Source of the DNA: Bacteroidota bacterium
Lineage (GTDB): Bacteria; Bacteroidota; Bacteroidia; B-17B0; Aurantibacillaceae
DNA length: 64,000 nt
Assembly: GCA_030684395.1 (NCBI GenBank)
Contig: JAUXTT010000013.1
Location: forward strand, 1 to 64,000
Reading direction: 5' to 3'
This document shows positions 10,289 to 55,791 of this stretch, one piece after another. A program made the position numbers and the translations under genes. Position 1 is the first letter of the stretch; each line of letters begins with the position of its first letter. The notes under the pieces are model-generated. The model was not told the origin of the DNA. It made no database searches and saw nothing but the letters and a program-made list of their open reading frames with translations.

Positions 10289-10297
10289 ATAAATGTT

Positions 10298-10305
10298 TAC
10301 TTTTG
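10298..10305 (+). promoter_or_regulatory. -7 box 5 nt before the tamB start
   Basis: TACTTTTG matches TAnnTTTG and ends 5 nt before ATG 10311. A transcript starting at the usual distance would begin at the start codon, implying a leaderless mRNA. No clear -33 TTTG at 19-21 bp was found. Confidence 0.5.
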
Positions 10306-10310
10306 TTAGG

Positions 10311-13300
10311 ATGCAGTTTTTACGCAAAGTTATACGTTTTCTCGGGCGATTCATAAAGTATTCGCTGATTTGCGTATTAGTGCTGCTGATCGCTTTTTTT
10401 ATAGCTATTCAAACCTCCACCTTTCAAACTTATCTGGGTAAAAAAGCTTCTGCCTGGTTATCGGAAGAACTAAAAACTACCATCAGCATCGAAAAAGTAG
10501 ATATTGACTTCTTTAGTTCCCTTGTTTTAAAAGGTGTGTATGTTGAAGATCTTGAAAAGGATACTTTGTTATATGGCAGCGAGGTTATCTGTAAAATAAG
10601 TGATTTTAGCTACAGTGAATACAAACTGGATATTGATGAGATCCAGCTAAACAACATCGATGCGAATTTGATAAAATATAAAGGGGAAAGCGTATACAAT
10701 TATGAATTTATTACCGATTATTTTGTTCCTGCAAATACCATAAAAGACACAACGCCTTCAGAGTTTAAGATTGGTTACGGTGATCTAATCCTTGATAATG
10801 TAAACTTTGCATACATTAATGAAAATGATACATCCAAAACAAAAGGGATGAATTTTTCTAAACTAAGATTTACCGGAGCGAGTGGAACTTTCAGCGATTT
10901 TAGGTCAGAAAAAGATACCATTAATGTTACCATAAAGGGTTTTAAGGCAAAAGAACAATGTGGCTTCGCATTGGAAAACCTCAGTACTATTGCACATATC
11001 AGCCCGCTCAACATAAAACTGGATTCTCTTTACCTGAAAACTGATAAAACACTTTTGATTGGAAGGTATTATATGCAAACCAATTCATGGGATTCATACA
11101 ACGACTACATCAATAAAGTGTATATGGATGCCGACTTAAAAGACAGTTGCTATGTGAGTGCCGCCGATATAGCATGGTTTGTTCCTGAAATACATGGAGA
11201 CCAAAATAGAATCAGTATTTCAGGAAAAGTGAAAGGGACAGTAAACTCTTTGAAAGGTAAAAATCTTTATCTCGCATTTGGAAAAAACACAGAGTTCAGA
11301 GGTGACTTTAACATTGAAGGCTTGCCCAATATTGACGAAACTTATATTCATTTTGACATCAAGAATTTAACTACCAGCAGAAGTGATTTGCAAACCATTC
11401 AGATTCCACCATTTGAAAAAAACAGACACCTCGAAATACCTGCCAATATTGGAAAGTTTGGCGTAATGAAGTTTAAAGGAAAAATAGATGGTTTAGTAAA
11501 TGATATTGCAGCTTATGGAACCCTTAGTACAGCTATCGGGAATTTGAATGCGGATGCCGGAATTTCCAACTTAAGTGACAGAAAAAAAACATTAGCATAT
11601 CACGGTAAATTAAAAACGAATAAACTTAACCTCGGTGTTCTTCTTGAAAACAAAGATATTGGAATGGTTTCTATGAATGTAAATCTTAGCGGAAAAGGTT
11701 TTACTCTTGATGATTTGGACGCCAAGATGGAAGGAGACATTCATGAAGTACAATTCAAAGGCTACCCTTACAGCAACATTAAAATAACGGGAGATTTTAA
11801 AAAGCGGCTTTTTAACGGTAAATTCGAAAGCCGTGATCCGAACGCAAATATTGATTTTTATGGTAGTGCAAGTTTTGTAAACAAAATTCCAGAGTTGGAT
11901 TTCATTGCCACTGTACACCGTTTGGATTTCTCAAAACTTAATTTCTTTAAGCAGGATTCCACTTCTGATTTTTCTTCGCAGATCTCCATTCAACTGAACG
12001 GCTCTGACATTGATAAGATGACCGGGCGTATTAACTTTGATGATACCAAATACAAATATCTTGGAAAAGAATATAAACTAAGTACTTTCGATTTACAGTT
12101 AGATCAAAATGTTTCCCCGAAAGTGATAAAATTAAGCTCAGGGGTGGCTGATGTAAAACTAAGTGGTGATTTTAATATATCTAATCTTGGGGACGCTTTT
12201 ACGCAAGTGTTTGCTACCTACTACCCTACTTTTATCAAACAAAGTGTGGAGCAAAAAAACAAACGGAACTATGATAATTTTGATTACAAGATAAAAATCA
12301 AAAAAATCAGTCTTATAAATGGTTTATTCATGCCGGACCTGATGATTGCACCTAACTCAGTTGTTGAAGGACAATTTGATGCTTCATCCAATACTTTTAC
12401 AATGAAAGGAAATTCGGAAAAAATTTCATACGGGAATTATAATTTGAGGAATTGGGCATTGAACATTCAGTCGAATAGTGATAATACCATGATGATCTCA
12501 ACCACAGCAGACAAGATTCATGTTTCGGATAGTGTTTACTTTTCTGCATTTAAATTTAATGCACAATCGCTCGACAAAAAATCAACTTTTGCAATCAATT
12601 GGGACAATCAACTAAAGTCTAAACAAAATGCCGGTGGAATAGCAGGTGCTGTAGATTTTTCGAATTCAGGCATGGATGTATTATTTAAAAAAATAGACTT
12701 GATTGTTTCTGATAGTGTTTGGTCATTAAATAAAGAAAACCACTTAAGCATTGACTCTTCCGGCATCATTAATTTCAATGATCTTGGGCTCTCCAACAAC
12801 GGTCAAAGAATTGCATTAAAAGGCCTTTTAAGCAAAAACCCAAAAGATCAGTTAATGATTTCATTTGAAAGCTTTAAGCTTGTTCAATTAAATCCCATTT
12901 TAAAAAGTGCCAATTTGAGTTTAGATGGAACCATTTCAGGAACCAGTAATGTTTCTGACATTTTCGGTAACGTTATTTTTTCCTCCGCTCTCGATTTCAA
13001 AAAATTAACGATCAACGGAAAAGCAATAGGGACAGGAGAAGTAAACAGCTTTTATGACAAAAACAAAGAAGTGATTTCATTGAATGGAAGTTTCAAAAAA
13101 GACTATGCTGCCGGAACATTGAGTGACCCTAATTTTAAAAATTTATATTTCTCAGGTTATTACTACCCATCAAAAAAAGAGAACAACCTGGATGTAGACT
13201 TCACTTTACAATCTATTGACATTGCAATTATACAGCCATATGTACAGGGGATCTTAAATTTCGGGAAAGGTTACATATCAGGAACAGCAAGAGTTACAGG

Positions 13301-14885
13301 AAGCCTAAACAAACCTTTAATCAACGGGAAACTCTCTTTAGAATCTGTGCGCAATATGCGGGTTGATTATTTAAACACTTATTATACCGTGAGTGGAAAC
13401 ATACTTTTAGAACCAGACAGGATTGCATTTGAAGGTCTTTCATTGTTTGACATGAATGGTAAAGAGGCAATTGTGTGGGGAAATATTTTCCATAATAACT
13501 TTAAAGATCTTAAACTCGATTTTGACATTCAGGCAAACAAATTCATGGTACTTAATACCAACCAATTTCTGAATTCGAGCTATTACGGAAAAGCATTTGT
13601 TACCGGAAATGTTGGTATTTGGGGGTCTCCCGAATTTATGAATATGGAATTAAATTTAAAAACTGAAAAAGGAACTCAGTTTAATATTCCACTGGGTGGT
13701 CCGGCAGAAGTAGCAGACAACGACTTTATACGCTTCATTAAAAAAGACACCTCAGCTATTCCGGAAGAAAAAACTGATCTCTCAGGTATGAGTTTGAAGT
13801 TTAACCTGGAAGCTACTCCTGATGCAGAGATTCAATTAATATTTGATGAAAAAGCCGGCGATGTTATTAAAGCAAGTGGAAAAGGAAACATAACCATGGA
13901 TATTAATACCAATGGTAATTTTGAGATGTTTGGAACCTATACTCTAACAGATGGAAGTTATTTGTTTACGCTTGAAAATTTTATCAACAAAAAATTTGAT
14001 ATTGAAAGTGGCAGTACTATTAAATGGTCAGGCAGTCCTTACAATGCCGACATCAATATAACCGCCAACTACAAACAGAGAGCATCTCTTGCTCCATTCT
14101 TCCCTTCGGTTTCTTCATCCACATCAAGCACAACAGCAACTGGAACCGCCGCTTCCACAACAACCAATGTTAGTTCAGCGGGAACAAGTAACGGCGATAT
14201 AAATAAACGTTATCCGGTAGAATGTAAATTGTATATGCGCGATAAACTCTTAACTCCCGAAATTACTTTCGGTATCGCCCTTCCTTCTGTAACGGATGAT
14301 AAAAGGCAGCAAGTGCTTGGTTATATTAACAACGAGCAGGAATTGAATCGGCAGGTATTTTCACTTTTATTATTAAAGAGTTTTGTAACGCCATTAGCCT
14401 TAAATAATCAATCAGGCGTAAACGCAGGAAATGCAGTAGGTGCTAATGCTACAGAGATGCTTTCAAATCAGCTGAGTAACTGGCTTTCCCAACTATCAAC
14501 TAATATTGATGTGGGTGTAAACTATACTCCCGGAACTACCTTAAGTAATGAAGAATTGGATCTTGCTTTGTCCACTCAATTATTCAACGATAAATTAAGT
14601 ATTGATGGTAACGTGGGTGTAAACAATAATACTCAAACCAAAACGAGTAATATGATCGGTGATTTGAACATTGATTACAAACTTACAGACGAAGGTAAGG
14701 TGCGTGTAAAAGCATTCAACCGTTCGAATGACACCTATCAAACAACAACGTCCGGCGGGCAGTTCACACAAGGTGTAGGAGTTTTCTTCAGGGAAGATTT
14801 TGAATCGGTAGCTGAGTTATACAGACGCTACAAACAAAAAGTTGGTAAAAAGAAGAAGACACCTGTAGACGAACAAAAGACTTAA
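10311..14885 (+). CDS. tamB: Translocation/assembly module protein TamB (DUF490)
   Basis: A very large (about 1524 aa) AsmA/TamB-type protein. One N-terminal hydrophobic helix (FIKYSLICVLVLLIAFFIAI, about 15-35) anchors it in the inner membrane. The rest is long repetitive beta structure spanning the periplasm, and the C-terminal 350 residues have TamB-domain character (YTLTDGSYLFTLENFINKKFDIESGS, KRYPVECKLYMRDKLLTPEITFGIALP, VGVNYTPG). A Ser/Thr/Ala-rich linker interrupts the domain near 1270-1300. TamB-like proteins help outer-membrane protein insertion or lipid transport between membranes. An alternative ATG lies 18 nt upstream, but the -7 box falls between the two, so I use the later one. 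No adjacent tamA/bamA homologue is present. Confidence 0.88.
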   Translation: MQFLRKVIRFLGRFIKYSLICVLVLLIAFFIAIQTSTFQTYLGKKASAWLSEELKTTISIEKVDIDFFSSLVLKGVYVEDLEKDTLLYGSEVICKISDFSYSEYKLDIDEIQLNNIDANLIKYKGESVYNYEFITDYFVPANTIKDTTPSEFKIGYGDLILDNVNFAYINENDTSKTKGMNFSKLRFTGASGTFSDFRSEKDTINVTIKGFKAKEQCGFALENLSTIAHISPLNIKLDSLYLKTDKTLLIGRYYMQTNSWDSYNDYINKVYMDADLKDSCYVSAADIAWFVPEIHGDQNRISISGKVKGTVNSLKGKNLYLAFGKNTEFRGDFNIEGLPNIDETYIHFDIKNLTTSRSDLQTIQIPPFEKNRHLEIPANIGKFGVMKFKGKIDGLVNDIAAYGTLSTAIGNLNADAGISNLSDRKKTLAYHGKLKTNKLNLGVLLENKDIGMVSMNVNLSGKGFTLDDLDAKMEGDIHEVQFKGYPYSNIKITGDFKKRLFNGKFESRDPNANIDFYGSASFVNKIPELDFIATVHRLDFSKLNFFKQDSTSDFSSQISIQLNGSDIDKMTGRINFDDTKYKYLGKEYKLSTFDLQLDQNVSPKVIKLSSGVADVKLSGDFNISNLGDAFTQVFATYYPTFIKQSVEQKNKRNYDNFDYKIKIKKISLINGLFMPDLMIAPNSVVEGQFDASSNTFTMKGNSEKISYGNYNLRNWALNIQSNSDNTMMISTTADKIHVSDSVYFSAFKFNAQSLDKKSTFAINWDNQLKSKQNAGGIAGAVDFSNSGMDVLFKKIDLIVSDSVWSLNKENHLSIDSSGIINFNDLGLSNNGQRIALKGLLSKNPKDQLMISFESFKLVQLNPILKSANLSLDGTISGTSNVSDIFGNVIFSSALDFKKLTINGKAIGTGEVNSFYDKNKEVISLNGSFKKDYAAGTLSDPNFKNLYFSGYYYPSKKENNLDVDFTLQSIDIAIIQPYVQGILNFGKGYISGTARVTGSLNKPLINGKLSLESVRNMRVDYLNTYYTVSGNILLEPDRIAFEGLSLFDMNGKEAIVWGNIFHNNFKDLKLDFDIQANKFMVLNTNQFLNSSYYGKAFVTGNVGIWGSPEFMNMELNLKTEKGTQFNIPLGGPAEVADNDFIRFIKKDTSAIPEEKTDLSGMSLKFNLEATPDAEIQLIFDEKAGDVIKASGKGNITMDINTNGNFEMFGTYTLTDGSYLFTLENFINKKFDIESGSTIKWSGSPYNADINITANYKQRASLAPFFPSVSSSTSSTTATGTAASTTTNVSSAGTSNGDINKRYPVECKLYMRDKLLTPEITFGIALPSVTDDKRQQVLGYINNEQELNRQVFSLLLLKSFVTPLALNNQSGVNAGNAVGANATEMLSNQLSNWLSQLSTNIDVGVNYTPGTTLSNEELDLALSTQLFNDKLSIDGNVGVNNNTQTKTSNMIGDLNIDYKLTDEGKVRVKAFNRSNDTYQTTTSGGQFTQGVGVFFREDFESVAELYRRYKQKVGKKKKTPVDEQKT
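10325..10332 (-). promoter_or_regulatory. -7 box for tsaD inside tamB
   Basis: On the minus strand the sequence reads TAACTTTG, a full TAnnTTTG match, 36 nt before the tsaD ATG. It lies within the first codons of tamB, so the two divergent promoters overlap and may compete. Confidence 0.5.
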
Positions 14886-18306: not shown

Positions 18307-21300
18307 ATGAACGCCAGGTTCAACGCAACTTTATACACCCTCTTTTTGCTGATCTTTTCTTTTCAGAAAGTTCATGCTCAAGACAATTATTTTCAGCAAG
18401 ACGTAAGCTATACCATCAATGTTTCTTTAAATGATGTAAAACATGAACTAAACGCATTTGAAGAAATAAAATACACCAACAATTCTTCCATCGAATTACC
18501 TTATTTATATTTTCATATTTGGCCGAACGCATACAAAAACAGCGAGACCGATTTGGGCAAGCAATTATTAGAAAGCGGAGAAACAAAAATGTATTTTGCT
18601 GAAGAAAAAGACCTTGGATATATTGATAGTTTAGATTTTAAGGTGAATGGATTAAACATCAAATGGGAAATTGATACTAAGCACATCGATATTTGCAAAT
18701 TATTTTTGCAACAACCATTAAAAAAAGGCGAGAGTATTACTATCACTACTCCATTTCACGTAAAACTTCCCAGTGCAGAAATTTCGCGCTTAGGTCACTT
18801 AGGTCAAGCTTATATGATCACACAATGGTATCCAAAACCTGCAGTATTTGACGCCAATGGTTGGAATGCTATGCCCTACCTTAATCAAGGTGAATTTTAT
18901 TCGGAGTTTGGGAGTTTTGACGTGAGCATTACCTTACCAAAAAATTATTTACTTGCCGCCACCGGCGATCGTATTGATGGAAACGCGGAAGAAGACAAAT
19001 TTATCGAAGACAAATTCGAAGAAACAAAAGCAAAAATTCAGCGCTACGAAAAAGGCGGCGACATTGCCTTTTTAGAAGACATGACGTTTCCCAAAAGTGA
19101 TAGTTCCTTAAAAACACTTCGCTTCAAACAATATAATGTACATGACTTTGCGTGGTTTGCCGATAAACGTTTTAATGTATTGCAGGGTGAAGTTGAATTA
19201 CCGAAATCACAAAAAACAGTTAAAACCTGGGCCTTTTTTACAAATAAAAATCTTCCTCTCTGGAAAGACTCCAGAGCCTATTTAAATGATGCAACTTTTT
19301 TCTATTCCTTGTGGAATGGAGATTACCAATATAATCATGTTACAGCAATTGACGGAACCATTAGTGCAGGTGGAGGAATGGAATATCCGAATATCACAGT
19401 GATAGGTGATTCACATAATGCTTTTGAATTAGAAACCGTTATTATGCATGAAGTTGGGCACAATTGGTTTTATGGCATGTTGGGTAGTAATGAGCGTGTA
19501 CATGGATGGATGGATGAAGGGATCAACTCTTTTAATGAGATGCGGTATATCAGAACCAAATATCCTTCGACCACATTAGGGGCAATGTTTGGGCAAGATA
19601 GCTCCTTTTCTTTGGGAGGATTAAATAAATTCAAACAGGCCTCTCAATACGAACTACTTTATAAATACTCTGCTTCACAAAATATTGATCAGGCTTGTGA
19701 GTTGCATTCATCTAAATATACAAGCCTGAATTACGGAGCAATTGTATATAGCAAAACAGCAGTGTTATTTAATTATCTTATGAATTATATGGGAGAAGAA
19801 GATTTTGACCGGGCCATGCAATTCTACTTCAACAACTTTAAATTCAAACACCCGCAACCACAGGATCTTAGAAAGACAATGGAATATTTTAGCGGAAAAA
19901 ATTTATCCTGGTTTTTCGATGATCTGATTGGAACAACAAAAAAACTGGATTATAAAGTTTCGAAAGTCAAAAAAAACAAAGACGGTCAATATGAAGTAAC
20001 CATAAAAAACACAGGCGACATTGCCGGCCCGGTTGCCATTTGCGGATTATTTAAAGGTGAGATCAGAGCTATGATGTGGCTGGATGGTTTCGAAGGGAAA
20101 AGAACGGTAAGTTATCCACCTGCAGAAGTAGATGAATTTAAGATTGATTATTTTCAATTTATGCCTGACATAAAACGAAAAAATAATTCCTGCAGAACAA
20201 CCGGTATTTTCAAAAAAGTGGAACCTGTTAAATTTCCGTTGTTGGGTGCATTAGATGATCCATACCAGTCACAGTTGTTCTGGACACCTACCGTTGGTTA
20301 CAATAATTACAATGGGTTTATGGCAGGTCTCGCCTTTTATAACCATGTAGCTTTTCAAAAAACATTGGAGTACGAATTCATGCCTTTTTACGGATTTAAG
20401 AATAAGAGCATTGCCGGTTATGGAAATGTACAATTGAACTTAAAACCCAAAACAAGGTTTCAGCAAGTGAGCCTTGGTGTGAAAGCTGCCCGTTTTGCCT
20501 ATGAGAACGAACCTTTTGATGTGAACTACAATAAGGTTGCACCTTTTATCAATTTTATTTTCAAGAAGAAAAATGCCAGAAGTACTATCACACAAAATCT
20601 TTCTTACAGGGCAGTACTGTTATTTATAGAAGATTCCAATTATTACATTGATCCTGCAAGCAATGAGTTTGCACCTCAAAAGTCAGAAAACAATTATCTG
20701 ATCAATGATTTCACCTACAAACTCGACAATAAAAGAAGCATAAATCCGTTCTCTGTAATTGCCAATTATCAAAGTGCTATTGGAATGGACAAAGCATCTG
20801 TTACAGGAAATTATTACATCACTTTAAAAAACAAAAAAGCATTTCATTTCAGGATGTTTGCCGGTAAAGTATTTAGCAATACTTCTAAATTTTTTGACGC
20901 GCGTTTTCGTATGAGTGGGCAATCAGGTTACCAGGATTATATGTACGATAATTTTTATTTTGGAAGAAGTGCTTACTCTGCCCCTGATGTGGCAACTCAA
21001 CAATTTACTGAAACAGACGGTGCCTTTAAAACAGGTTCTTATGCCGGACAAAGCGATGACTGGATTGTTTCATTTAATATTAAAACACCCAAGGTTTTTA
21101 AATTACCATTATTTATTTATGCAGATGCAGGGGCTTATCATGCAAATGGAATGGATAAAAGCGCGGAAATGTTGTGGACCGCCGGCGTTGGTATTCCCAT
21201 CATAAAGAATTTTGTAGAAGTATTTTTTCCGGTGATCAGCAGTCAGAATATTTTGGATGCGCAAAAAAATTACAGTGAGAGATATATTGATAAAGTTCGT

Positions 21301-21363
21301 TTTACTTTTTATCTTAACCGCGCAAACCCCTTTGAAATTATTAAAAACAATTTGCCTTTTTAA
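18307..21363 (+). CDS. M1 metallopeptidase with C-terminal barrel-like region (copy 1)
   Basis: A 1018-aa exported protein with a signal peptide ending VHAQ (about 1-24). Residues 30-600 are an M1 (aminopeptidase N/LTA4H-type) unit. The exopeptidase motif appears as GGGMEYPN, and the zinc site HEVGH-x18-E uses His381, His385 and Glu404, with Glu382 as catalytic base. The final 370 residues change character: alternating aromatic-rich strands (FMAGLAFYNHVAF, YEFMPFYGF, GYGNVQLNLKP, VRFTFYLN) ending in Phe, as in outer-membrane barrels. The protein may therefore anchor its own peptidase to the outer membrane. Its stop codon overlaps the next start by 1 nt. A second protein of the same plan lies at 52.6-55.8 kb. 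Confidence 0.88.
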   Translation: MNARFNATLYTLFLLIFSFQKVHAQDNYFQQDVSYTINVSLNDVKHELNAFEEIKYTNNSSIELPYLYFHIWPNAYKNSETDLGKQLLESGETKMYFAEEKDLGYIDSLDFKVNGLNIKWEIDTKHIDICKLFLQQPLKKGESITITTPFHVKLPSAEISRLGHLGQAYMITQWYPKPAVFDANGWNAMPYLNQGEFYSEFGSFDVSITLPKNYLLAATGDRIDGNAEEDKFIEDKFEETKAKIQRYEKGGDIAFLEDMTFPKSDSSLKTLRFKQYNVHDFAWFADKRFNVLQGEVELPKSQKTVKTWAFFTNKNLPLWKDSRAYLNDATFFYSLWNGDYQYNHVTAIDGTISAGGGMEYPNITVIGDSHNAFELETVIMHEVGHNWFYGMLGSNERVHGWMDEGINSFNEMRYIRTKYPSTTLGAMFGQDSSFSLGGLNKFKQASQYELLYKYSASQNIDQACELHSSKYTSLNYGAIVYSKTAVLFNYLMNYMGEEDFDRAMQFYFNNFKFKHPQPQDLRKTMEYFSGKNLSWFFDDLIGTTKKLDYKVSKVKKNKDGQYEVTIKNTGDIAGPVAICGLFKGEIRAMMWLDGFEGKRTVSYPPAEVDEFKIDYFQFMPDIKRKNNSCRTTGIFKKVEPVKFPLLGALDDPYQSQLFWTPTVGYNNYNGFMAGLAFYNHVAFQKTLEYEFMPFYGFKNKSIAGYGNVQLNLKPKTRFQQVSLGVKAARFAYENEPFDVNYNKVAPFINFIFKKKNARSTITQNLSYRAVLLFIEDSNYYIDPASNEFAPQKSENNYLINDFTYKLDNKRSINPFSVIANYQSAIGMDKASVTGNYYITLKNKKAFHFRMFAGKVFSNTSKFFDARFRMSGQSGYQDYMYDNFYFGRSAYSAPDVATQQFTETDGAFKTGSYAGQSDDWIVSFNIKTPKVFKLPLFIYADAGAYHANGMDKSAEMLWTAGVGIPIIKNFVEVFFPVISSQNILDAQKNYSERYIDKVRFTFYLNRANPFEIIKNNLPF

Positions 21364-22109
21364 TGAATAACAAAAAAATATATTTCGCTTCCGATTTTCA
21401 CTTAGGTGTTCCCACTTATGAGAAGAGCCTTACGCGTGAACGCCTTTTGGTAAGATGGTTAGACACTGTTAAACAGGATGCGGAAGAGATCTATTTAGTT
21501 GGTGATCTTTTTGATTTTTGGTTCGAATACAAATACACAGCACCAAAAGGATACATTCGTTTCCTCGGGAAGATAGCAGAGATTGTTGATTCAGGAATTC
21601 CTGTACATGTATTCACGGGCAATCACGATATGTGGATGTATGGTTATTTACCAAAAGAACTTGGAGTTACCATGCATCGCGAACCAATCACACGCATTTG
21701 GAATGAAAAGAAATTGGTAATTGGTCATGGCGACGGGCTTGGACCCGGAGATCGTAAATACAAATTCCTTAAAAAATTCTTTGCAAGTAAAGTATGCCAG
21801 TGGTTGTTTGCCCGTATCCATCCTAACCTTGCATTTGGAATAGCTAATTATTTCAGCAAAAGCAGCAGGGCTTCAACAGGAAAAAAAGATGAGATCTTTA
21901 AAGGAAATGAAGACGAGTGGTTATATACTTATTGCAAAGAATACCTTCAAAAAGAACATGTAGATTATTTCATTTTCGGACATCGTCACTTACCTCTTGA
22001 TATTCAACTAAACGACAACAGTAAATACATCAATTTAGGTGAGTGGCTGAATTATAATACCTATGCGGTGTTCGATGGGGAAAAAGTTGAGTTAAATACA
22101 TTCAAGTAA
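21363..22109 (+). CDS. lpxH: UDP-2,3-diacylglucosamine diphosphatase, LpxH-like
   Basis: A 248-aa calcineurin-like metallophosphoesterase. The metal-binding series is complete: SDFHLG (residues 10-15), GDLFDFW, GNHDMW (about 88-93), GHGDGLGPGD (about 118-127) and FGHRH (about 206-210). LpxH removes UMP from UDP-diacylglucosamine to give lipid X in lipid A synthesis, at the cytoplasmic face of the inner membrane. Length and motif spacing suit LpxH rather than the LpxI or LpxG types. It starts on the last base of the M1 peptidase stop codon (TAATG), so translation is probably coupled. Other LPS genes in the window are kdnA, kdnB and waaA. Confidence 0.85.
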   Translation: MNNKKIYFASDFHLGVPTYEKSLTRERLLVRWLDTVKQDAEEIYLVGDLFDFWFEYKYTAPKGYIRFLGKIAEIVDSGIPVHVFTGNHDMWMYGYLPKELGVTMHREPITRIWNEKKLVIGHGDGLGPGDRKYKFLKKFFASKVCQWLFARIHPNLAFGIANYFSKSSRASTGKKDEIFKGNEDEWLYTYCKEYLQKEHVDYFIFGHRHLPLDIQLNDNSKYINLGEWLNYNTYAVFDGEKVELNTFK

Positions 22110-52611: not shown

Positions 52612-55600
52612 TTAAAACGCCCTATTCACACCAATCATCCAACGGAACTGCAGGTAATCTTTTTCTGCATATGGTAAACGATTAATGAATACAGGGAAAT
52701 CAGCGCGGATACTTAGTGGTTTTACAGTTTGCAATTTCCAAAAACGTTTGATAATTAATTCTAATCCCAAACCTGCATCCGCCATTATGTTGGAGAATGC
52801 CATGTTCTCAGTTGTGTAGTTGGTATTGATGACACCTGCATCTCCAAATAAATACGGTGTCAATTTAAAGGTGTTACGCAAAAGTGCTTTGTCTAATTTC
52901 ACCAGTTTATCAAATTCGATTTCCACACTTGCGGAAGTACCTGTCATGCCTTTGTAATTGTAATGAGGAATTCCATCAATATCTCCGCTATATAATAAAT
53001 AACCCATGTAACCTCTTAAGTTTAATCCACCACCCGCAGCGAAGTTGGTGGTTTTTGCACCGAAATCAAATGGAGGCATAATTCCCATTGAGCGCGTGTA
53101 TTTATTATCCATCAATTCTTCAGGGTTTGCTCCTGCTGCGTATAGCATTGATTCTAATGGAACATTGTTACCTGTTCCAACTTGTGCAAATAAACGAGTA
53201 TTGATGTTTACGATTCCTAATTTACTTTTTGTGATCCATGATCCGGTTAAAGCAGAGTAATCATAATCGCTGTAAACAAATGGAGTTCTCAGTGTTAAGT
53301 TCCATTTCCCCGCCCCTTTTCTGTAATTGTAATCGTGATCAAAACTTACATTCATTGTGTTATTCAGTTTACCCGGGATCCAATGACTTTTGTAGATCAA
53401 ATAAGTAAGGTCATTATCCACATCGCGTAACATGGTTTTTAACTGAATGAATAATTTATTTTTATCGTTATTACTTTTCTTTTCGAAACCTACCCATGCA
53501 GAACTTAATCCATCCAGCTCACGAATACTTGCACTGAAAGAAGATCGTTTCATAAATTTTTCTGTAGACGTTTTATAATTAACTAAAACAGAGACATTAT
53601 CATTACTATTAATATGTTCTGTGGTTAAATAAGACTGGCCAATTCTTGAGTTGAACCAAACTGTTGCATCAAACACATTTTTTATTCCCATGTAATTTCC
53701 GTTGGCATGTGCTCCGAATTTAATACCATCAAAACCGTTGTACCAAACGGCAGGACGGTAGAATAGTTCATAGTTATTACGATCAGGTAAATTAAAGATC
53801 TTTGAATCCAAACTAACAGTAACATTTTTTTTGCTTGAATTATTTACACCATACACATCAGCTAAACGGTGAGTTGTATCAATAACTACATTCTCAATTC
53901 CACCAGGAATAGTAACTGTAGCAGTATAAGTAGGTTTCACTTTATCCCAACCTATCCAACGTGGCAAAGTAGTTGCAGTTGTTTTTTTCTCGAACCAGGT
54001 ATTTGGAATATAAAAACTCTTGCTGGAAGAATCTTTTGAAATCACAGTAAAGTCGATTGGCATTTGCATTTTACCAATACGCTTGAAAGTTATTTTATAT
54101 TGATCCTTTGTCTTCCTTACCTTCTTAACTTTAGTTACAGCGTAATCAATTGTTTTGGTAGTTTCCATCCACTGATCAAAGAACCAATTCATATCTGCTT
54201 TGGTAGTTTTAGCAATTGAGTTTCTGAAATCTTCCGGATAAGGATGACACATCATCCATTCATCAAAATAATTTTGCATTGCAACAACAAACAAACTATC
54301 GCCCAATACATATTTCAAGTTGTATAACATTGTAGCAGTCTTGGTATAAACTTGACCGTATCCGCCACCGTGTCTGATTCCTCCGTTAAATCCATCACTG
54401 TGCGTGTTCAAAGTAACTTCTTCACCTTTGTTTACTGAATTGTAATATCCGTAATACACATCCGTTTCACGCACTTTATTTTTCTTGTGATATCTCTCAA
54501 CATAATTCGAACCACTTCCGTACTCAATATCATACACACCTTCTATATTTTCCCAGGTATCGGCAGTATAGAATTGAGTGAATCCTTCATCCATGCAGGC
54601 ACGATATGTTTCGTTACTCCCGATCATTCCGAAGAACCAGTTGTGTGATAATTCGTGAATAAATAAACCTCTGAACTCAGGATCGTATCCACCATTTAAA
54701 GCAATCATCGGATATTCCATTCCATCCTGCGCATCAGCTGAGATCATTTTAGGATAAGCATACATTCCAATATTTCTTGAGTTAGTCTCGATAATCTTAG
54801 CAACATATTTTGCAGCGTTTATCCAACCCGCAGCATGTGGTTCTTGCACCAATGCAATACAACGTATGTTTCCGTAATGCGCTTCTCCAATACGATAAGT
54901 TGGATCAAAAGTATAAGCAACATCGTGTACATTTACTGCAGAAAATTTCCATGTTTTAGTTGTACCATCTCGTTTCACCATTTCTCCTGCAGGAGAATTC
55001 CATGGCTTCTTTTTAAAATTAGAGATATCCAGTTTCTCACGTAATTCAATTGGTAACACTTGCGGCTCGTTGATCATTGCACCTGTACCATCTAAAATAT
55101 AATGATTCGGAACAGTGATTTCTACGTGGAAAGCACCATAGTCACCATAAAATTCGTGATCCATGTGTTGATCTGTATCCCAACCGAATTTTTTATCATA
55201 CACGGAAATACGAGGATACCAATGCACCATATCATAATGTTTGTATGGACCGGCATTAAACAATTTCATACGATTACGAATTGCTTCTTTATCAAAATAG
55301 GTTTTGAAATCAATATTAAAAGTGATTGAATCACCTGCTTTCAAAGGTTTATCGAGCCACACTTTTAAAATAGTATTGTCTAATTCTGTTTTCAGGTCTT
55401 TACCGTCAACCTGCATTTTGGTAACTTCAGTTCCCAAATTGTCTTTACGATACTTACCAAACTTTAAATGATAATTATTGTTTTTGTAGAGATCAGCTAA
55501 ATAAGAATCTTTCGTGTTTGCGTTTGCATATAAATGAAAATACACATAGTTCAATTCGTCAGGAGAGTTATTCCAATAGGTTAGCTCTTCGTTTCCTGTT

Positions 55601-55791
55601 ACTACATCAGTGCAATCGTTTACACTTGCTTTCAGGTTATAAAACACATCCTGTTGCCAATATGCATCATGCGGTTTTTTATTTTTCCAGTAGTATAGAT
55701 TTTTTGCTGAGCGGAATTGGGTATATTCTTTTTGTCCGAAAATGAACAGTGGAAGAATGAATAGGATGAGTAAGAGTGCTTTTGTTTTCAT
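52612..55791 (-). CDS. M1 metallopeptidase with Omp85-like C-terminal region (copy 2)
   Basis: A 1059-aa exported protein, signal peptide ending IFGQ (about 1-20). The M1 unit covers about residues 40-640: DGMEYPM as exopeptidase motif and HELSH-x18-E as zinc site (His379, His383, Glu402; base Glu380). From about 650 on the sequence becomes amphipathic aromatic strands, including GGGLNLRGYMGYLLY, which resembles the conserved strand of Omp85 barrels, and it ends in RWMIGVNRAF with a C-terminal Phe. This suggests an N-terminal peptidase carried by an outer-membrane barrel, in the style of type Vd autotransporters. No POTRA domain is evident. It is convergent with ahpD. Confidence 0.88.
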   Translation of the reverse strand: MKTKALLLILFILPLFIFGQKEYTQFRSAKNLYYWKNKKPHDAYWQQDVFYNLKASVNDCTDVVTGNEELTYWNNSPDELNYVYFHLYANANTKDSYLADLYKNNNYHLKFGKYRKDNLGTEVTKMQVDGKDLKTELDNTILKVWLDKPLKAGDSITFNIDFKTYFDKEAIRNRMKLFNAGPYKHYDMVHWYPRISVYDKKFGWDTDQHMDHEFYGDYGAFHVEITVPNHYILDGTGAMINEPQVLPIELREKLDISNFKKKPWNSPAGEMVKRDGTTKTWKFSAVNVHDVAYTFDPTYRIGEAHYGNIRCIALVQEPHAAGWINAAKYVAKIIETNSRNIGMYAYPKMISADAQDGMEYPMIALNGGYDPEFRGLFIHELSHNWFFGMIGSNETYRACMDEGFTQFYTADTWENIEGVYDIEYGSGSNYVERYHKKNKVRETDVYYGYYNSVNKGEEVTLNTHSDGFNGGIRHGGGYGQVYTKTATMLYNLKYVLGDSLFVVAMQNYFDEWMMCHPYPEDFRNSIAKTTKADMNWFFDQWMETTKTIDYAVTKVKKVRKTKDQYKITFKRIGKMQMPIDFTVISKDSSSKSFYIPNTWFEKKTTATTLPRWIGWDKVKPTYTATVTIPGGIENVVIDTTHRLADVYGVNNSSKKNVTVSLDSKIFNLPDRNNYELFYRPAVWYNGFDGIKFGAHANGNYMGIKNVFDATVWFNSRIGQSYLTTEHINSNDNVSVLVNYKTSTEKFMKRSSFSASIRELDGLSSAWVGFEKKSNNDKNKLFIQLKTMLRDVDNDLTYLIYKSHWIPGKLNNTMNVSFDHDYNYRKGAGKWNLTLRTPFVYSDYDYSALTGSWITKSKLGIVNINTRLFAQVGTGNNVPLESMLYAAGANPEELMDNKYTRSMGIMPPFDFGAKTTNFAAGGGLNLRGYMGYLLYSGDIDGIPHYNYKGMTGTSASVEIEFDKLVKLDKALLRNTFKLTPYLFGDAGVINTNYTTENMAFSNIMADAGLGLELIIKRFWKLQTVKPLSIRADFPVFINRLPYAEKDYLQFRWMIGVNRAF

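Follow-up and report, generated by a model that had tools for sequence, protein, structure and literature searches.

The window, a 64,000-nucleotide stretch of a Bacteroidota genome, contains an M1-Omp85 fusion gene on its minus strand (52612..55791), an open reading frame with an ATG start that encodes 1059 amino acids. In a single chain, a signal for secretion is followed by a complete M1 metallopeptidase and a C-terminal barrel; domain architecture, motifs and conservation were computed directly for the fusion protein. All features of this gene given below lie on the minus strand. Residues 1-19 (MKTKALLLILFILPLFIFG, 55735..55791) were read from the sequence as a signal peptide, residues 2-17 appearing as a low-confidence helix in the structural model. 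Without a lipobox cysteine, the predicted signal peptide would be of the signal peptidase I type. The full-length AlphaFold2 model, based on 55 sequences, reached a pLDDT of 91.3 and a pTM of 0.88.

As the initial annotation had proposed, the chain includes an M1 peptidase. A Pfam scan of the window protein matched Peptidase_M1 (PF01433) at residues 377-541 with an E-value of 2.9e-11, and the best M1 match in the PDB to a profile of 28 relatives was the cold-active aminopeptidase 3cia (4.5e-16). When the full-length model was compared by Foldseek, all 50 matches listed were M1 aminopeptidases (IRAP, ERAP1, ERAP2), aligned over ~650 columns. AlphaFold2 secondary structure and the Foldseek alignments to these three enzymes place an M1 N-terminal beta domain at residues ~43-316 (54844..55665), its borders being inferred, and the PF01433 and 3cia profile matches place the catalytic domain at residues ~317-545 (54157..54843). 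The latter harbors the zinc motif HELSH (residues 379-383, 54643..54657), with the ligands H379 and H383 and the catalytic E380, all three invariant in the 49 fused and 6 soluble relatives aligned (49/49 and 6/6 rows). E402, in the pair D401-E402 (54586..54591), is assigned as the third zinc ligand on the basis of its invariance and completes an HExxH-(18)-E site. Y482 (54346..54348), likewise invariant across the 55 rows, lies in QVYTK, a motif like VYEK of E. coli PepN, and on this motif we take it to be the M1 catalytic tyrosine. The counterpart of the M1 exopeptidase motif GxMEN is GMEY (residues 357-360, 54712..54723), in which Asn is replaced by Tyr. Its G, E and Y are present in every fused and soluble row (49/49 and 6/6) and its M in 48/49 and 6/6; the replacement of Asn is a family-wide change, found in 55/55 rows of both forms. 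With this zinc site, the catalytic tyrosine and a motif of the GxMEN type, the protein belongs to the M1 metallopeptidases. Since H379, E380, H383, E402 and Y482 are invariant, the M1 domain is predicted to be active, and judged from its sequence it probably acts as an aminopeptidase. The soluble relatives share an identical active site, and hence the barrel is unnecessary for the chemistry.

The catalytic domain is followed in the AlphaFold2 model by a further M1 beta domain of the domain III type (residues ~546-640, 53872..54156) and a linker (residues 641-673). Residues 550-637 form six strands and no helix, and no helix-containing unit that could represent a POTRA domain is present in the model between the M1 domain and barrel strand 1. 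The initial annotation had seen no POTRA domain either, and the all-beta character of residues 546-640 with the short linker bears this out. The soluble M1 relatives (~610-630 aa) end at the homologous fusion point and likewise carry the all-beta domain. POTRA domains are usual in Omp85 proteins but not universal, being absent from the noNterm and Metallo subfamilies, and none is predicted in the M1-Omp85 protein.

Residues 674-1059 (52615..53772) form an Omp85-type beta barrel, as judged by AlphaFold2, Foldseek and a profile search of the PDB. The initial annotation had suspected Omp85 kinship in this part of the protein, and both profile search and structure prediction support it. Sixteen strands were predicted by AlphaFold2 (674-685, 689-700, 704-714, 733-742, 750-759, 762-772, 778-788, 810-823, 826-837, 844-858, 861-876, 951-959, 975-989, 1003-1014, 1026-1036 and 1052-1055), with pLDDT mostly >85; a model of the barrel alone gave a pLDDT of 89.1. 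In a Foldseek search with the latter, TamA (4c00) ranked first (E 8e-9, probability 1.00) and all 50 matches listed were TamA or BamA chains, including the Porphyromonas gingivalis BAM complex, at TM-scores that are moderate (0.38-0.52 by query length). The barrel sequence profile, run against the whole PDB, retrieved BamA as its sole match (7.8e-4; 2e-3 with a second alignment). In addition, L048, a distant fused relative, lies above the Pfam Omp85 cut-off (27.1 versus 24 bits), and in profile-profile alignment the barrel is colinear to the last Phe with short Omp85 proteins that lack POTRA and come from the same order (P ~4e-4), compared with 0.57-0.75 for the control barrels PorP/SprF, OMP_b-brl_2 and FadL. 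By sequence and fold the barrel thus matches Omp85 above other barrels, while the window sequence alone stays below the Pfam cut-off: Pfam and NCBIfam scans of the window protein, which did find M1, returned no Omp85 match, PF01103, scanned against all six frames of the genome, was silent at the gene even with E relaxed to 10, and a PDB search with the single sequence gave no match. The barrels of most fused relatives also escape the Pfam Omp85 model. Profile and fold methods were needed here, and a single-sequence test would wrongly have dismissed the kinship. The C-terminal strand, RWMIGVNRAF (52615..52644), is of the outer-membrane sorting type and ends in Phe, as had been stated in the initial annotation; 39/49 fused relatives likewise terminate in Phe.

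Omp85 barrels are marked by two motifs, (V/I)RG(Y/F) at the tip of the sixth extracellular loop (L6) and (F/G)xDxG on strand 13, the latter as described in PMC4490367. In the M1-Omp85 protein the long L6 spans residues 877-950 (52942..53163), between strands 11 and 12 of the AlphaFold2 model. It contains the stretch GGGLNLRGY, which begins at residue 920 and had earlier been singled out as an Omp85-type motif; within it, LRGY (925-928) carries Leu at the V/I place, and RGY (926-928, 53008..53016) is the L6 signature of Omp85. As RG[YF] has a chance expectation of 0.16 in a barrel of this composition, the L6 motif is weak evidence when taken alone. A chance occurrence was rejected, because RGY sits at the exact Omp85 position, the strand 11-12 loop of the predicted 16-strand barrel, and because 44/49 fused relatives retain R926 and the same number retain G927. 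On strand 13, FxDxG, the second signature, takes the form FGDAG (F982, D984 and G986; 52834..52848), with F conserved in 49/49, D in 46/49 and G in 47/49 fused relatives. That this lid lock of L6 RG and strand-13 FxDxG has been kept suggests a folded, lid-closed Omp85 state rather than a decayed anchor.

The fusion of enzyme and barrel is real and conserved. A match to the M1-Omp85 protein (P0001) was detected in 86/87 genomes of the order, mostly full-length orthologues with 53-79% identity, and in most genomes of the order it is a single open reading frame of ~1060-1100 codons. Fused relatives beyond the order occur in Ignavibacteriota, Calditrichota, Fidelibacterota, Rhodothermota and Candidatus Chrysopegis, and two M1-barrel genes are arranged in tandem on an Ignavibacteriota contig (L169:5932-12414, plus strand). 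The soluble form is carried by many flavobacteria, some Cytophagia and a Balneola. On the M1 tree the fused and soluble states need 2 changes, against a mean of 26 with shuffled labels, and the soluble forms are a nested group. This nesting suggests one loss of the barrel, though in a tree with three distant M1 outgroups these did not fall into one clade and gave no clean root. No window neighbour recurs beside the gene in 53 relatives, and the neighbouring genes give no clue to a substrate or pathway. The few relatives that share housekeeping neighbours (rlmH-like, nadC, brkB-like) are read as having inherited this context. The genome of the window (G000) gave 22 PorP/SprF-like matches with E-values of up to 1e-10; across the order the count ranged from 9 to 22 for each genome.

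A divergent paralogue of 1018 amino acids, also composed of an M1 peptidase (PF01433, 4.8e-19) and a related barrel, is encoded elsewhere in the window (18307..21363, plus strand). The initial annotation had described the two proteins as sharing one plan. This stands, the two barrels being homologous (profile-profile E 6e-6); the paralogue lacks the L6 RGY and has a tail beyond its last strand. Orthologues of the paralogue are present in most genomes of the order. Its stop is overlapped by ATGA with the start of an LpxH-like phosphoesterase gene (21363-22109, plus strand), the product of which matches PF00149 (3.6e-10), has LpxH as its best PDB relatives and lies below the NCBIfam cut-off. Within the order the two genes adjoin in 24/25 loci, a hint that the paralogue may be connected with lipid A or outer-membrane building. 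The window also encodes a TamB-family protein of 1530 aa (10293-14885, plus strand; PF04357, 4.7e-59), for which no link to the M1-Omp85 gene was found.

We consider it likely that the M1-Omp85 protein is embedded in the outer membrane as an integral protein and that its Omp85-type barrel holds an M1 metallopeptidase, exported by Sec and most likely an aminopeptidase, on the periplasmic face. Following export by Sec, the barrel would be inserted by BAM through its C-terminal Phe strand, and the enzyme, which precedes strand 1, would stay on the periplasmic side. There it could trim peptides or N-termini beside the membrane, with the barrel serving presumably as an anchor at least. Periplasmic placement is expected because the N-termini of Omp85 proteins face the periplasm, and it is favoured over autotransport because a 2024 study showed that PlpD, the prototype of type Vd, retains its enzyme domain in the periplasm instead of secreting it (PMC11116518).

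Other explanations of the architecture were weighed against periplasmic anchoring. A C-terminal half formed by an ordinary barrel of 16 strands without kinship to Omp85, its RGY acquired by chance, would agree with the missing Pfam match of the window protein and with the chance expectation of a single RG[YF]; this reading was rejected as extremely improbable, given the Foldseek and PDB profile results, the Pfam match of L048, the colinear alignment with its negative controls and the presence of both signatures at the right strands. Autotransport in the original type Vd sense, in which the barrel would carry the M1 domain out to act as a surface exopeptidase on environmental peptides, appears quite improbable. 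The order of enzyme and barrel does resemble the original description of PlpD, and a free-living Bacteroidota cell could well make use of peptidases on its surface. However, outward carriage of the enzyme is disputed even for PlpD (PMC11116518), no POTRA domain is predicted, and the M1 enzyme, with 640 residues, folds into a large globule, unlike the beta-helical passengers exported by type V systems. The strand-13 motif, moreover, has the FxDxG form of the insertases TamA and BamA and not the GxDxG form of FhaC transporters.

This insertase form of both lid-lock motifs is compatible with a side machine of BAM or TAM, an active insertase or translocase incorporating a protease, that would fold or handle some outer-membrane proteins and trim or remove failed ones. 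In the model strand 16 is short (1052-1055), as would be expected at a lateral seam, and the fusion has been conserved over a long time. In function such a machine would resemble BamA together with the metalloprotease BepA, which in E. coli is a periplasmic zinc peptidase acting at the BAM complex (PMC8423444). We nevertheless regard such a machine as unlikely: there is no POTRA domain to receive substrates, M1 enzymes normally remove single N-terminal residues and are a poor fit to folding quality control, and the order retains separate POTRA-size Omp85 proteins. A similar doubt applies to the idea that the fused proteins form an Omp85 subfamily of several phyla, not named before, with M1 substituted for POTRA and a barrel still active as insertase or translocase, so that one polypeptide would combine outer-membrane protein handling with peptide cutting. 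If the barrel were still active, outer-membrane protein assembly would be linked directly to proteolysis. For the periplasmic anchor that we favour, the fusion suggests a role for periplasmic aminopeptidases at the outer membrane in Bacteroidota and related phyla. It also offers a natural way of asking whether the lid lock persists in an Omp85 barrel that has no POTRA and does no insertase work.

The initial annotation had treated an M1 peptidase joined to an Omp85 barrel as a combination not known to be described, and in agreement with this, no description was found in the open-access literature or the family libraries searched. The ten Omp85 subfamilies defined by Heinz and Lithgow in 2014 include patatin, WD40, Metallo and noNterm classes and none with M1 (PMC4104836). 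The Metallo class was considered as a possible equivalent and rejected, as it carries PF00149 (PMC4104836), in Pfam a calcineurin-like phosphoesterase and not a protease. The search of Heinz and Lithgow began from Omp85 barrel sequences (PMC4104836), and the omission of the fusion may be explained by barrels that are invisible to the Pfam Omp85 model. A peptidase is likewise unmentioned in a recent paper on the structure of a Bacteroidota BAM complex (PMC12611786).

Among known proteins, the soluble Bacteroidota M1 peptidases (~610-630 aa) are related through the enzyme: they agree with the fused proteins in M1 domains and active site, are 30-35% identical and nest with them in one tree, but stop at the fusion point without a barrel. 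BamA and TamA, the best structural matches, share the 16 strands, the long L6 with RGY and the strand-13 FxDxG; they differ in having POTRA domains and in sequence (~12% identity), the enzyme of the M1-Omp85 protein standing in place of their substrate-receiving part. The absence of POTRA is common to the Metallo and noNterm subfamilies, and the short Omp85 proteins of the same order that align colinearly with the barrel are taken as noNterm; Metallo, however, carries PF00149 instead of an M1 peptidase, and noNterm carries no enzyme. The closest parallel in plan is PL-Omp85/PlpD, in which the enzyme domain also comes first and a 16-strand Omp85-type barrel last in one chain, the enzyme being probably periplasmic in the M1 protein too. 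A type Vd protein consists of a patatin domain, a linker, one POTRA domain and a barrel, whereas here an M1 metallopeptidase replaces patatin and no POTRA lies between enzyme and barrel. The type Vd-like arrangement suggested by the initial annotation therefore holds for domain order only and not for a secretion system, since POTRA is missing and the PlpD enzyme itself is periplasmic. According to the PlpD paper, all Omp85 proteins studied earlier build or move proteins at the outer membrane (PMC11116518); a conserved POTRA-less Omp85 barrel fused to a peptidase would represent a second clear case in which this scaffold has been put to new use in positioning an enzyme there.
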